A DNA stretch of 61,476 nucleotides, taken from positions 1 through 61,476 of IMG/VR virus record IMGVR_UViG_3300035670_000213; one strand, given 5' to 3'. This document shows positions 5,419 to 11,604 of this stretch, one piece after another (position 1 is the first letter of the stretch; the number at the start of each line of letters is the position of its first letter). The translations under genes and the position numbers were made by a program. The notes beneath the pieces are model-generated. The model was not told the DNA's origin. It did no database searches and saw nothing but the letters and a program-made list of their open reading frames with translations. The stretch comes from a virus.

Positions 5419-5997
5419 TTATCTCATTAGATTAGTAAATGCGTTTACGAATGTATTTAAGTATCTTTCTTGAATAACTAAGATAGTTCTCTTCGATTCG
5501 TTTTGTTCTAATTCATAATCATATAGAGAAATTGATTTTCTCATCAGAATACCATTCTCGAATTGTGGAGTATCGTTATATTTCTCTTCGGGAACTTGTA
5601 CCCAGTAAGCAGCATCTTCTACTTCGTCATCTGAATATTGCAAAGAACTTGTTCTGATATAATATATGAAAGAAGTTGCAGCAATAGAAATTGAACCGTA
5701 CTTTTGTTCTATATACTGAGTTAATTGAGAATCTGTAAGAGGAAAATCATAGAATCTATCGAATCTCTTATTAATCAACATAATAACCCAATAAAACTCA
5801 GGTGATCTGTACAACTTATTAGAAACATCTTCTATTGTTTCGGTTTCTAACATTGTGTAATTGTAGAACAGAGATTTATCGTCGAGTAAAGATTCTTTCC
5901 TGACAACTAATGAAGTGATATTCTTGAGTAAAAGAAACTCGTTTTTCTCTGTGAAATCTGGATATTCAACCCAATTGAAAGTATTGAAATATGGCAT
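5419..5997 (-). CDS. 53: baseplate wedge protein gp53-like
   Basis: 192 residues, near the T4 gp53 length. The family core LYRSPEFYWVIMLINKRFD is at about residues 62-80, after the usual acidic segment and LETETIEDVSNKL. gp53 clamps adjacent wedges in the T4 baseplate. The gene starts with ATG at 5997, nine bases after the preceding cap gene ends, and ends two bases before the hub gene starts. Confidence 0.9.
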   Translation of the reverse strand: MPYFNTFNWVEYPDFTEKNEFLLLKNITSLVVRKESLLDDKSLFYNYTMLETETIEDVSNKLYRSPEFYWVIMLINKRFDRFYDFPLTDSQLTQYIEQKYGSISIAATSFIYYIRTSSLQYSDDEVEDAAYWVQVPEEKYNDTPQFENGILMRKSISLYDYELEQNESKRTILVIQERYLNTFVNAFTNLMR

Positions 5998-6005
5998 GTA
6001 TATCC

Positions 6006-6971
6006 TTATTGTGTGTTAGAATTGTTCTGGGTGTTGATTGCTGATATCGAATACTCTTCAATTGATTTCTGAATCTGCAAAATAACTTCTTTTGTGAGAA
6101 TCTGAACTTCTTTGAATTTCAGAACAAGATCTACTTCTACGGGCGCAGCAGTATCCTTGAATGTCACAAAATTATTGTTACCGGAATAATTAACATCAAT
6201 ACCAGTCAACACCGAAGTCAAAACAAATGGTAGATACTTATTCTTAGCGATAGCTCCTTTTGAATCTTTCGTATAGAAAGTAATATCAAAATCGGATGGA
6301 TATCTTAATAAGAATGATTGTCCGTCTAATTCTGGATGCATGTGAAACCTGAGTAGATTCACGATCTCTTTAATTTTCTCGGATTCCATTCTATTTTTGG
6401 CTATCAACTTATATGACATGTCAAATTCCCGAAACTTAACGCCCTCGAATAGCAACTCTGAGTGTGGGTTTAAGGACAGACCTTGATAACCACCAATAGT
6501 GGGAAGTATGGATTGTGTAATCGATGTGCCCTGAGTTGTTGCCGATTTAAATGCATTAGCAGCAACCTCCCCCAACCTAGCGCCAATTACACCGGAACCG
6601 ATGGTAGACAAAACCGATCCGATTCCACCAGCAATCTTCAATCCTTCTTTTGTTAGGTCTAGTGTATTGTAAGATACACCATAGTTAGTTTTAAGACTGA
6701 TAGGAACTGGTAGGAATATGGTGTAAGTTGTTTTTGTTTTATTGCCACCCCTATTCAGTGCCTGTCCACCGGACAAAAAACCAAACGAACTTGCTACTCG
6801 TGTTTTTTCTGTTTGTATGCCATTTACATTCTGCACAACACCCGGAGATGGGCTATAATTAACATTTGTTTCAGCAGACTCATTTATATAGATTACCATG
6901 AATTGATTTCCGTACCGAGAAGATACTTCATTATCGGTAGTTAGATTATCAGGAAATTGAATCTTTTGCAT
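6006..6971 (-). CDS. 48: baseplate tail-tube cap protein gp48-like
   Basis: 321 residues. The amino end (MQKIQFPDNL, then SSRYGNQFMVIYINE) and the later LRYPSDFDITFYTKDSKG and LTSVLTGIDVNYSG segments match gp48-type tube-cap proteins. A Gly/Ala-rich hydrophobic stretch sits at about 125-160. gp48 sits on the hub and, with gp54, starts tube polymerisation. Its ATG is five bases after AATAAATA on the minus strand, so it probably has a leaderless late transcript. It is divergent from gp4. Confidence 0.87.
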   Translation of the reverse strand: MQKIQFPDNLTTDNEVSSRYGNQFMVIYINESAETNVNYSPSPGVVQNVNGIQTEKTRVASSFGFLSGGQALNRGGNKTKTTYTIFLPVPISLKTNYGVSYNTLDLTKEGLKIAGGIGSVLSTIGSGVIGARLGEVAANAFKSATTQGTSITQSILPTIGGYQGLSLNPHSELLFEGVKFREFDMSYKLIAKNRMESEKIKEIVNLLRFHMHPELDGQSFLLRYPSDFDITFYTKDSKGAIAKNKYLPFVLTSVLTGIDVNYSGNNNFVTFKDTAAPVEVDLVLKFKEVQILTKEVILQIQKSIEEYSISAINTQNNSNTQ

Positions 6972-8172: not shown

Positions 8173-8895
8173 ATGTTACCCAAATTGAATCATCCAAAAT
8201 ATGAAGTGAAGATTCCCTCAACCGGAGGGTCGTACAAGTTCAGACCGTATACCGTCAGAGAACAGAAAATTCTACTTATGATGCAAGATTCAACAGATAT
8301 AGATGAGTTAACTGATTGCGTCAAAGATTTGATTATATCATGTTCTTTGAACGAAAAATTCAATCCGGATTCACTCAGTTATTTCGACATTGAATATTTG
8401 TTCTTGAAGATCAGATCAAAATCAGTCGGAGAAATTACTCAGATTTCATTTAAGTGTAACAACATCGTCGAAGAATCAATATGTGGCGGAATCAATAGAA
8501 TCGATGTCTCATTAGATGATGTTGCCGTGGATTTCTCGAATACCCCATCACCAACAATTCAGATTGGATCAAATCTCTATATCAAACTAGGTTATCCAAC
8601 GATCACGTCAGCTAAGTTATTGGAGCAATACAACCACACCAAAGAAATGGATAAGTTATTGGCTGCAATTTCTATTGATGTAATTCATATCTCTGATTCA
8701 GAAAAGATATACGACGATTTCACTTCGGATGAATTAAAAGATCTACTATTATCACTTGAATTGAGCGCATTTTCTAAAATCATCGAGTTCTATGCGAATT
8801 GTCCAAAGATTAAGAAAGAAATAGGTTTCGTGTGTTCTAAGTGTGGATATGAGGAAAGAATTGTTTTATCAGGGTTATCGGATTTTTTCGAATAG
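8173..8895 (+). CDS. 26: baseplate hub assembly protein gp26-like (T4_baseplate family)
   Basis: 240 residues. MLPKLNHPKYEVKIPSTGG, then KFRPYTVREQKILLMM, is the classic opening of the gp26 hub-assembly family, and YFDIEYLFLKIRSKSVGE follows near residue 75. Two cysteine pairs (CNNIVEESICGG and CSKCG) suggest a structural metal site. In T4 this protein acts in hub assembly. The last codons contain T TTT TTC immediately before the stop, and the -1 frame beyond it stays open for 62 codons, so a longer fusion form is likely. Ribosome binding site AAGGAAA lies just before ATG. Confidence 0.85.
   Translation: MLPKLNHPKYEVKIPSTGGSYKFRPYTVREQKILLMMQDSTDIDELTDCVKDLIISCSLNEKFNPDSLSYFDIEYLFLKIRSKSVGEITQISFKCNNIVEESICGGINRIDVSLDDVAVDFSNTPSPTIQIGSNLYIKLGYPTITSAKLLEQYNHTKEMDKLLAAISIDVIHISDSEKIYDDFTSDELKDLLLSLELSAFSKIIEFYANCPKIKKEIGFVCSKCGYEERIVLSGLSDFFE
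8883..8889 (+). promoter_or_regulatory. candidate -1 ribosomal frameshift site (T TTT TTC)
   Basis: The heptamer is in the correct phase of gene 26 (GAT TTT TTC GAA TAG). Slipping back one base enters the frame of the small downstream ORF and would give a fusion of about 301 residues. An internal AGGG (8871-8874), about nine bases upstream, could act as a stimulating Shine-Dalgarno-like element as in dnaX. No strong downstream stem-loop was found by eye. Confidence 0.6.
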
Positions 8896-8915
8896 CCATT
8901 AATAATGATGATTTG

Positions 8916-9077
8916 ATGAACTATTACATTAGTAATTTTACGATGGCTCAGTTTTACAAATACTCTCTTACTGAATTAGATGATATGTATCCTTTTGAAA
9001 GAGAGATCTACATATCCTTACTCAATAAACATATAGAAGAGGAAAACGAGAGAAGAAAGAATGGCAAAAAAACTTAG
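8916..9077 (+). CDS. small tail-assembly protein, probably expressed as a gp26 frameshift extension
   Basis: 53 residues from ATG 8916, but the same frame is open back to 8889 and so continues gene 26 after a -1 slip. No ribosome binding site precedes ATG 8916 or the internal ATG 8943. The core YKYSLTELDDMYPFEREIY resembles the short second components of tail-assembly chaperones that precede tape-measure genes. The stop (9075-9077) overlaps the start of the next gene by 17 bases, as in lambda G/T-H. The role as chaperone is inferred from position and pattern. Confidence 0.65.
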   Translation: MNYYISNFTMAQFYKYSLTELDDMYPFEREIYISLLNKHIEEENERRKNGKKT

Positions 9078-11604
9078 TAAGAAAACCAGATCGATTGCTG
9101 ATATAATTGGAGCTAGTAATAGAGAAGTAGCCAAAAATATCGATGCCCTTTCTTCTCAATTATCCGAATTAACTAATCTTATCATCGAAGATAGAAAGTT
9201 AAAAGAAACCGAATCAAAGAAAAGGTCTTCATTAGATCGTAGGATAGCGATACAGGATGCCAAACAAAAAGCCATAAATCTTGCATACGAAAGCGAGTTA
9301 AAAGAATTATCATCGGAAAGAAGATCAATTGGATTCAAGATTAATTCTCTCTTAGCAGAAGAGAAGAAGATTCAAGCAGAAGAGAAAAAGAAGTCGGAGG
9401 AGGAAGCCAGAGCATATACATCTCAAGCCGAAAAAGCATATGCTTCTGGTGATTTCGTAAGTGGTTTATTCTTGTCGTTTTTGGGTAGAAATGAACCTAC
9501 AAAGGAAGAACAAAAAGAAGCAGCAAAGAAAGAAGCCGCAGTAGAACGTGAGGCCCTACTAGGTGAGTTAGAGAAACAGAGAAAAGATCTAAAAGAACAA
9601 CAAAAGGCACTTCGTTCTGAACTTAAAACAGAATTGAAAAGTGGATTTGCTACTTTCAATAAATCGCTAATTGAATTAAAAGAAGACGAGACGGCTATAC
9701 TAAGAGATACTATAGATGACGTATCTAAAGAATCAATTATACCAAAAATTATTAATGTTCATATTGTATCACTCGATAAAAAGATACATAATAAGATTGA
9801 CAAATTAATAGATGGGGTAAATGAATTAAAATACACGAATAAGGGATTCGGATTACCTTTTACCGGAAATCAAATTTTTCCTAGTGGCAATTTACCAAAA
9901 GGAACCTCTACACTAGGAAGAGTCGGTCGTCTAGCAGGAAAGGCAGCTATCCCATTAACGATTGCTATGGGCGCATATGATGCTTTTATGGGTGGCACGG
10001 ATATTGGTGTCAATAAAATACTTCCTTCCAGACGTGGAAAAGAAACCACACCTATATCTCTAGCAGAAAGAGTTAGATCCGGAAAATCTTCTATGTTATC
10101 CGGATTAACTTTAGGATTCATTAGTCCAGAGACAATCGCAAAAGCAATGGAATCTCCTTTCGGTCAGTTAATCGAGAAAATGGGAAATATACTGAACCCA
10201 TTAATCGAAATACCTTTAATACTAGAGAAATTGTATGATAATTTACCTAGCGTATTGAAAACTAAACCAAAAAAACTAGAACCATCGGATATTAAGGCAC
10301 CGTCAAGAGAATCTTATGTATCTCCTTCAGTGAAAGAATCTATCGACAAAACATTCGAAGATCCTAAACTAAAAAACATGGTTCAGCAAATAATTATATC
10401 TGAATCTGGTGGTAAGAAAGATATCATAAATGCGGTAGGTGCTGCCGGATTATATCAATTTACCCAAAGTACTGCAAAAGATATCGCCAAGAAAACTGGT
10501 AGAGAAGATATCATTAGAGAAATCGAAGGCACAAAAATAATTAAATTTACTGAAGATCCTACAGTAAAAACGTTAAGTAAACAAGGAAAGAGTGAAGAAT
10601 TATCTCAGTATATAAAAGCAACTTATCCAGAATCAACTGCTGTTGCGGTGTCTAAACTATCAGAAGAACAGCAAACTGCAATGTACAAACAATTTCTTAG
10701 ACCGCTAATTGAGTATAAAGGTTCTGATATAGCAGTCGAAGATATTAAGTCATATGGATTCGCACCAAAATATCTTGATGCAGTAAAATCAGGAAATATG
10801 AATACTGTATTATATGACAGGGATAGTCAGGCATTTAAGTGGAATCCTGTGTTTGAAAAATGGGATTTAGATCGAAATGGATTGACTGCTCAGGAATTAT
10901 TGAATGGCGTTTCGTCTATGATGAAAAACAACCAATCAAATAATACAACCAAAAAACAATCCCCTTCTAAGATTACTCCATACGAATCCACTTCATCGGA
11001 AATCAAATCACTTGAATCGGATTATAATAAGTTGGGTAATGCTCCAGAAAATTCTGAGATGCGTAAAACTTTAGCGAAAAAAATACAAATCAACAGAAAC
11101 AAACTAGTGCAAATGGAAAAACGTTCTGATCTAAGATTCAAAGAAATCGATACTGGTTCGTTAGATTACAAAACGAAGTATCCGCAGATATACTCCGAGT
11201 TAGACAAAGAACGTTCGAATGAAATATCGAGTGGAAGAATACAGAAAGATATATATGGTAACCCTTTATCTGTAGCCGAAAGATTGCGTTATAGGCAAAT
11301 ATATGAAGATAAAACCGGATTATCTTCCTCTGAAGAAGGTTTATCTTACAATAAAATTAAAGAAAGAGTTAATGAAATATTAGTCCAAAATAACACACCT
11401 AAATCTTCGTCTGTTAATGTGGGGGCTGTGGTCGAAGATCGTCGAGCAATGGAACCAAGCAATACTTCACCAATGACTAGTATAAATGCACCGACAGTAA
11501 ACAATATATCCAATAACACTGTGTCGAGCGTTAGAGAAAAACCAAGAGATGTATTCTATCCAGAATCAATGTATTTACAGAGAATATTTGGAATACCGGG
11601 TTAA
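9061..11604 (+). CDS. tape-measure-like tail protein with lytic-transglycosylase-like motif
   Basis: 847 residues. Residues about 1-230 are charged and coiled-coil (E/K/A-rich with FGF hinges); about 290-370 is Gly/Ala-rich and partly hydrophobic, like tape-measure membrane segments. Residues 444-475 read IIISESGG, then NAVGAAGLYQFTQSTA, a soluble-lytic-transglycosylase/goose-lysozyme-like catalytic pattern with candidate catalytic E448. The remainder is polar and low-complexity. It directly follows the candidate tail-chaperone frameshift pair, the classical place of a tape measure. T4 gp29 is 590 residues and lacks a muralytic domain, so the assignment rests on context and composition. Confidence 0.65.
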   Translation: MAKKLSKKTRSIADIIGASNREVAKNIDALSSQLSELTNLIIEDRKLKETESKKRSSLDRRIAIQDAKQKAINLAYESELKELSSERRSIGFKINSLLAEEKKIQAEEKKKSEEEARAYTSQAEKAYASGDFVSGLFLSFLGRNEPTKEEQKEAAKKEAAVEREALLGELEKQRKDLKEQQKALRSELKTELKSGFATFNKSLIELKEDETAILRDTIDDVSKESIIPKIINVHIVSLDKKIHNKIDKLIDGVNELKYTNKGFGLPFTGNQIFPSGNLPKGTSTLGRVGRLAGKAAIPLTIAMGAYDAFMGGTDIGVNKILPSRRGKETTPISLAERVRSGKSSMLSGLTLGFISPETIAKAMESPFGQLIEKMGNILNPLIEIPLILEKLYDNLPSVLKTKPKKLEPSDIKAPSRESYVSPSVKESIDKTFEDPKLKNMVQQIIISESGGKKDIINAVGAAGLYQFTQSTAKDIAKKTGREDIIREIEGTKIIKFTEDPTVKTLSKQGKSEELSQYIKATYPESTAVAVSKLSEEQQTAMYKQFLRPLIEYKGSDIAVEDIKSYGFAPKYLDAVKSGNMNTVLYDRDSQAFKWNPVFEKWDLDRNGLTAQELLNGVSSMMKNNQSNNTTKKQSPSKITPYESTSSEIKSLESDYNKLGNAPENSEMRKTLAKKIQINRNKLVQMEKRSDLRFKEIDTGSLDYKTKYPQIYSELDKERSNEISSGRIQKDIYGNPLSVAERLRYRQIYEDKTGLSSSEEGLSYNKIKERVNEILVQNNTPKSSSVNVGAVVEDRRAMEPSNTSPMTSINAPTVNNISNNTVSSVREKPRDVFYPESMYLQRIFGIPG

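Follow-up and report, generated by a model that had tools for sequence, protein, structure and literature searches.

The tail assembly chaperone genes of T4-like phages were reportedly identified by Vladimirov, Gautam and Davidson (Virology, 2022), whose abstract is said to state that several T4-like groups have retained the frameshift and that T4 itself uses genes 26 and 51. In the PRFect paper, this work is the reference for T4-like phages in which the short gene is accompanied by a second, long fused gene (PMC10885494), and in the Adele paper it is the reference for TAC-N genes of T4-like phages with poly-T slippery sequences (PMC12846349). Both gp26 and gp51 of T4 are listed as hub assembly chaperones (PMC3004832). 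Sullivan et al. (2010) reported that gp51 of cyanophages is devoid of about 200 N-terminal residues, its length being about 20% of that in T4; the word "frameshift" is absent from the text of that paper (PMC3037559).

The frameshift has been known for T4 relatives since 2022, and the locus described here is a further member. It is part of an uncultivated virus sequence of 61,476 nucleotides, the whole of which is referred to as the window. A sequence-only reading had proposed that gp26 and a -1 frame extension represent the G/GT equivalent in this T4-like group. In view of the 2022 description, this central idea is correct and was already published. The accompanying remark that T4 was thought to lack such chaperones is outdated, as T4-like chaperones were identified in 2022 and T4 uses the separate genes 26 and 51.

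The junction and its putative products

All features of the junction are located on the plus strand. The gp26 gene (8173-8895) specifies 240 amino acids and is assigned to the short tail assembly chaperones (TAC-N, the G equivalent) by PF12322, phrog_150 and an AlphaFold2 model. Since its 0-frame ends with TCG GAT TTT TTC GAA TAG, the heptamer T TTT TTC at 8883-8889 is placed in the X XXY YYZ phase, and one codon (GAA) separates it from the TAG at 8893-8895 that would close the short form. From 8889 on, the -1 frame (CGA ATA GCC ATT AAT) is open for 62 codons and terminates with TAG at 9075-9077. This gp51-like extension (8889-9077), a candidate TAC-C or T equivalent, overlaps the following ORF, which starts with ATG at 9061, by 17 bases. 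The earliest possible start codon in the -1 frame is TTG at 8913, and no SD-like sequence is found 5' of it. Thus, the in-phase heptamer just before the gp26 stop, the 62-codon open frame, the missing ribosome binding site and the overlap with the tape-measure-like gene were all described correctly by the sequence-only reading. The Shine-Dalgarno-like AGGG, a candidate stimulator, is likewise present (8871-8874), at a distance of 8 bases from the heptamer instead of the nine given there. Mechanical ORF calling gave 81 frames of 100 or more amino acids in the window, and five of these contain an in-phase X XXY YYZ within the last 15 codons; the -1 frame following the heptamer remains open for 62 codons in gp26 versus 1-13 codons in the other four.

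Profile searches matched gp26 to Pfam PF12322 (T4_baseplate; E 7e-47, 160 bits versus a curated cut-off of 24.5) and to phrog_150 (E 6e-50). The extension matched phrog_634, "baseplate hub assembly catalyst" (gp51), at E 8e-21 over profile positions 58-117 of 121, and it also aligns with the very C-terminus of phrog_150. By homology, the -1 extension is the short gp51 of cyanophages, corresponding to the C-terminus of T4 gp51. The puzzling length of cyanophage gp51 would be explained in this way, as it would constitute the -1 half of a fusion and not a truncated gene. In cyanophage records, the tblastn match of gp26 ends on the same base on which the match of the extension begins, for example at 5740-6438 and 6438-6572 in S-RIM8 (KX349290), and sharing of one base is what a -1 junction gives. 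Many phage records split the long chaperone or miss it; in the finished genomes of S-WAM1 and Aeromonas phages Ah1 and 65.2 (loci L132, L137 and L143) the extension is present without an annotated gene.

The AlphaFold2 model of gp26 has a pLDDT of 94. Best structural matches of its N-terminal 85 residues were 3fgx (Z 8.2), the HK97 tail assembly chaperone 2ob9 (Z 7.3) and YqbN 3klu (Z 7.2), followed by 5ir0 (Z 5.1) and then by unrelated entries at 2.5; Z values of 7-8 are weak alone, but these top entries stand clear of the rest. With the gp26 model, plain Foldseek gave no match at E <= 0.001, the HK97 chaperone being at rank 7 and higher only with VIA-align, and comparing the gp26 profile with the sequences of solved structures yielded nothing meaningful. 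The N-terminal domain of gp26 is described as having a predicted tail-assembly-chaperone-like fold.

In 95 of 100 relatives, as in the window, a long ORF begins where the extension ends, and in one relative, phiM12, the downstream gene is annotated as tape measure. The corresponding protein of the window (9061-11604, 847 amino acids) contains a transglycosylase (SLT) domain, and a tblastn search of 50,697 phage records with it gave no match. Because a relative was not detectable there, we infer from position, length and SLT domain that 9061-11604 is the tape measure gene. By analogy to lambda G/GT, gp26 and the extended form probably load the tape measure, likely the product of this gene directly downstream.

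Conservation and variants of the slippery site

Conservation of the heptamer in relatives, suggested earlier as a check, was determined in 48 loci and then 80 more from viral contigs, to which finished phages were added. Codon statistics were calculated for 100 non-redundant relatives less than 80% identical to one another; T4, CP220, L044 and the Ackermannviridae had been set aside by hand. Requiring the heptamer introduced no bias into this set, as the sole locus dropped for its absence, L121, is truncated before the site. TTTTTTN was detected in phase at the junction of every assessable relative in the family with the exception of contig L044. Of 125 loci showing a match to the extension, 124 have it in the -1 frame.

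The junction reads NNT TTT TTN in all 100 non-redundant relatives. The codon preceding the two phenylalanines is GAT, AGT, AAT, TCT, GCT, GGT, ACT or CGT; the encoded residue varies among seven (D, S, N, T, A, G and R), but the third base is always T. The first phenylalanine codon is TTT in 100 out of 100, where 70% would be expected, TTC accounting for 30% elsewhere in these genes. Only these two of 228 gp26 columns have an invariant third base, and the next best column reaches 92%. With pooled codon use, log10 P is about -16 for each wobble position, a nominal value as the relatives share descent. The conclusion that the slippery site is conserved beyond the amino-acid constraint stands for these sequences, since the contrast to the other columns holds despite shared descent.

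Two deviating arrangements were encountered. In Ackermannviridae (Salmonella S8, Klebsiella May, Dickeya XF4, Serratia Kevin, Erwinia Bue1, Vibrio 207E48.1 and D495; loci L138, L139, L140, L145, L146, L147 and L148), a distant branch, a homologous gp51-like extension is kept in the -1 frame, and T TTT TTC has given way to N NTT TTC, such as G ATT TTC; the junction of Vibrio 207E48.1 is CTT TTT CGG. The extension is not annotated in S8 and May. On N NTT TTC, complete re-pairing would be possible for a single Phe tRNA, as is also the case at the T7 gene 10 site. A small ORF lacking the heptamer had been named beforehand as a refuting case, and such ORFs do exist in this family; their frame is still -1 and the T-rich TTTTC or TTTTTC is kept, so that they are read as carrying a modified signal and not as contradicting the proposal. 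In L044 (3676-3871), nine T's are present, and gp26 and the extension are in one frame. Either the homopolymer was misread or the two parts are truly fused, in which case slippage would be needed to make the short form. A model of the L044 in-frame fusion gave the same top three structural matches as gp26.

Stimulatory signals, selection and alternative explanations

Family-wide, binding of the anti-SD sequence to the 23 nt 5' of the heptamer amounted to -5.95 kcal/mol versus -4.88 kcal/mol in the synonymous null (Wilcoxon p 3e-6), for which the sequences were recoded synonymously according to the codon usage of the phage concerned. At control residue pairs elsewhere in gp26, similar to the pair at the junction, the trend in SD-likeness was opposite. 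Base counts in the relatives place the SD-like core about 10-14 nt 5' of the heptamer, a spacing close to that known from dnaX. Measured against synonymous shuffles, the 48 nt 3' of the site had a mean folding z of -1.28 in the relatives, and four control stretches gave means of -0.15 to -0.51; values below -2 were obtained for 35% of the relatives versus 7-13% in the control stretches. Clear stems, the first base of which lies about 5 to 8 nt 3' of the heptamer, were seen in L116, L117, L103, L025 and L112, in P-SSM2 and at L133. The stems of L116 and L117 differ by a compensatory change from A-U to G-C.

In the window itself, SD-likeness is weak (-3.3 versus -2.8). The possible stem at 8894-8948, in which 8894-8900 would pair with 8942-8948, is also a weak candidate, with z of -1.2 against dinucleotide shuffles and about -1.3 to -2.1 against synonymous shuffles. 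These scores do not support a strong hairpin 3' of the heptamer in the window. As both stimulators are weak there, they are not claimed as working parts of this junction. Some bacterial -1 sites function without stimulatory elements.

Alternatively, the RNA polymerase might slip on the T run and thereby connect the two frames, yielding mRNAs with one T inserted or deleted. The run is indeed always present, consists of 7-8 T's in 27 of the 100 relatives, and with nine T's in L044 both parts are found in one frame. However, 73 of the relatives have only six T's, which is shorter than the runs causing bacterial RNA polymerase to slip efficiently, the run is kept in exact codon phase, and the excesses of SD-like sequences and downstream structure fit ribosomes, so that this explanation is considered very unlikely. 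Still less credence is given to an independent gene, gp51, with its own start or with coupling to the gp26 stop, although the extension is drawn as a separate gene in many cyanophage records and in the deposited annotations of S-RIM8, P-SSM2, Mosig and DLP_6. Compared with relatives 44-65% identical in gp26, pN of the extension is 0.04-0.21 versus a pS of 0.67-0.87, and in the closest relatives the first eight codons, 5' of TTG 8913 and including the conserved RIAINND that precedes any start codon, changed mostly at third bases. According to these substitution patterns, strong purifying selection is acting on the extension from its first codons, upstream of any start codon. The first ATG, GTG or TTG is located 1 to 55 codons past the heptamer in the 100 relatives, and in none of them was an SD-like site detected before it. 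An independent gene would also leave the invariant slippery site without a reason. From substitution patterns and start signals, the extension is very probably translated through the junction.

Finally, one gene might have been split by a homopolymer error in sequencing or assembly. Homopolymers are error-prone, and L044 has a single frame, but the two-frame layout is shared by more than 120 contigs and by finished isolates such as P-SSM2, S-RIM8, the KVP40-like V09 and phiM12. For the family, this reading is refuted by the many isolates, and its probability for the window is regarded as negligible.

It is very probable, judged from sequence, structural model and analogy, that gp26 and its 62-codon extension are made as a short and long chaperone pair by -1 programmed ribosomal frameshifting. 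Most ribosomes would reach the TAG of gp26 and release the short tail assembly chaperone, while a fraction would slip back by one base on T TTT TTC when both the P site and the A site are occupied by tRNA-Phe. TTT TTC would be re-paired as TTT TTT, reading would continue with CGA ATA GCC, and the product would be gp26 fused to the gp51-like domain of 62 residues. Many short and few long chaperones would then coat the tape measure and bring tail tube subunits to it, as in lambda. A short and a long form sharing their N-terminus are found at the level of sequence. We infer that slippage occurs, its efficiency and the chaperone function; the proposed equivalence to G/GT is favoured alike by the invariant site, the -1 phase, selection, the homology to gp51 and the predicted fold.

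Beyond the shift already described, T4-like chaperone genes may have conserved stimulators, an SD-like sequence about 9 nt upstream of the heptamer and, in about a third of the genes, a stem about 6 nt downstream, and Ackermannviridae may have exchanged T TTT TTN for an A-site-only slip on N NTT TTC with the -1 extension kept. The chaperone pair would then have stayed the same while its shift signal was remodelled more than once. Belief and doubt are about evenly balanced for this proposal.

Comparison with known systems

In lambda (G/GT) and P2 (E/E+E'), a short form and a long form made by -1 frameshifting are encoded immediately ahead of the tape measure; the layout predicted for the window, with its probable tape measure gene, resembles theirs, and the P2 site is also a T-rich heptamer. 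No sequence similarity of the window proteins to lambda G/GT or P2 E/E+E' was found in the searches performed. At 240 amino acids, gp26 is larger than the lambda and P2 chaperones, with more protein following the chaperone-like N-terminal 85 residues. In Vandenendeviridae and Andersonviridae, a TAC frameshift with GTTTTT has been described, the extension being annotated as a separate hypothetical gene (PMC12846349). As proposed for the window, the -1 shift of these phages takes place on a T-rich sequence where TAC-N ends, but they belong to other families and use another motif.

As far as the passages citing Vladimirov et al. describe them, the TAC-N/TAC-NC pairs of T4-like phages correspond to the window in the gp26 and gp51 genes, the poly-T -1 site and the proposed role, and the window adds an uncultivated member to that set. 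T4 gp26 is homologous to gp26 of the window, and T4 gp51 shares its C-terminal extension. In T4 gp51, a gp26-like domain (PF12322, residues 1-201, E 4e-52) and this extension are contained in a single frame; in T4, therefore, each form has a gene of its own, 26 for the short and 51 for the long one. Gp28 of T4 was considered as a third paralogue and discarded (hhalign probability 1.5-4%). T4 gp26 (gene at L050:5303-5929) weakly matches the gp28 family phrog_1140 (E 9e-4), and the profile comparison gives no support to kinship. Genes 26 and 51 are located on opposite strands of T4, where a frameshift is not needed, whereas the window has one gene with a -1 extension. T4, with the same two proteins from two genes, is therefore the natural comparison for the conserved frameshift site.
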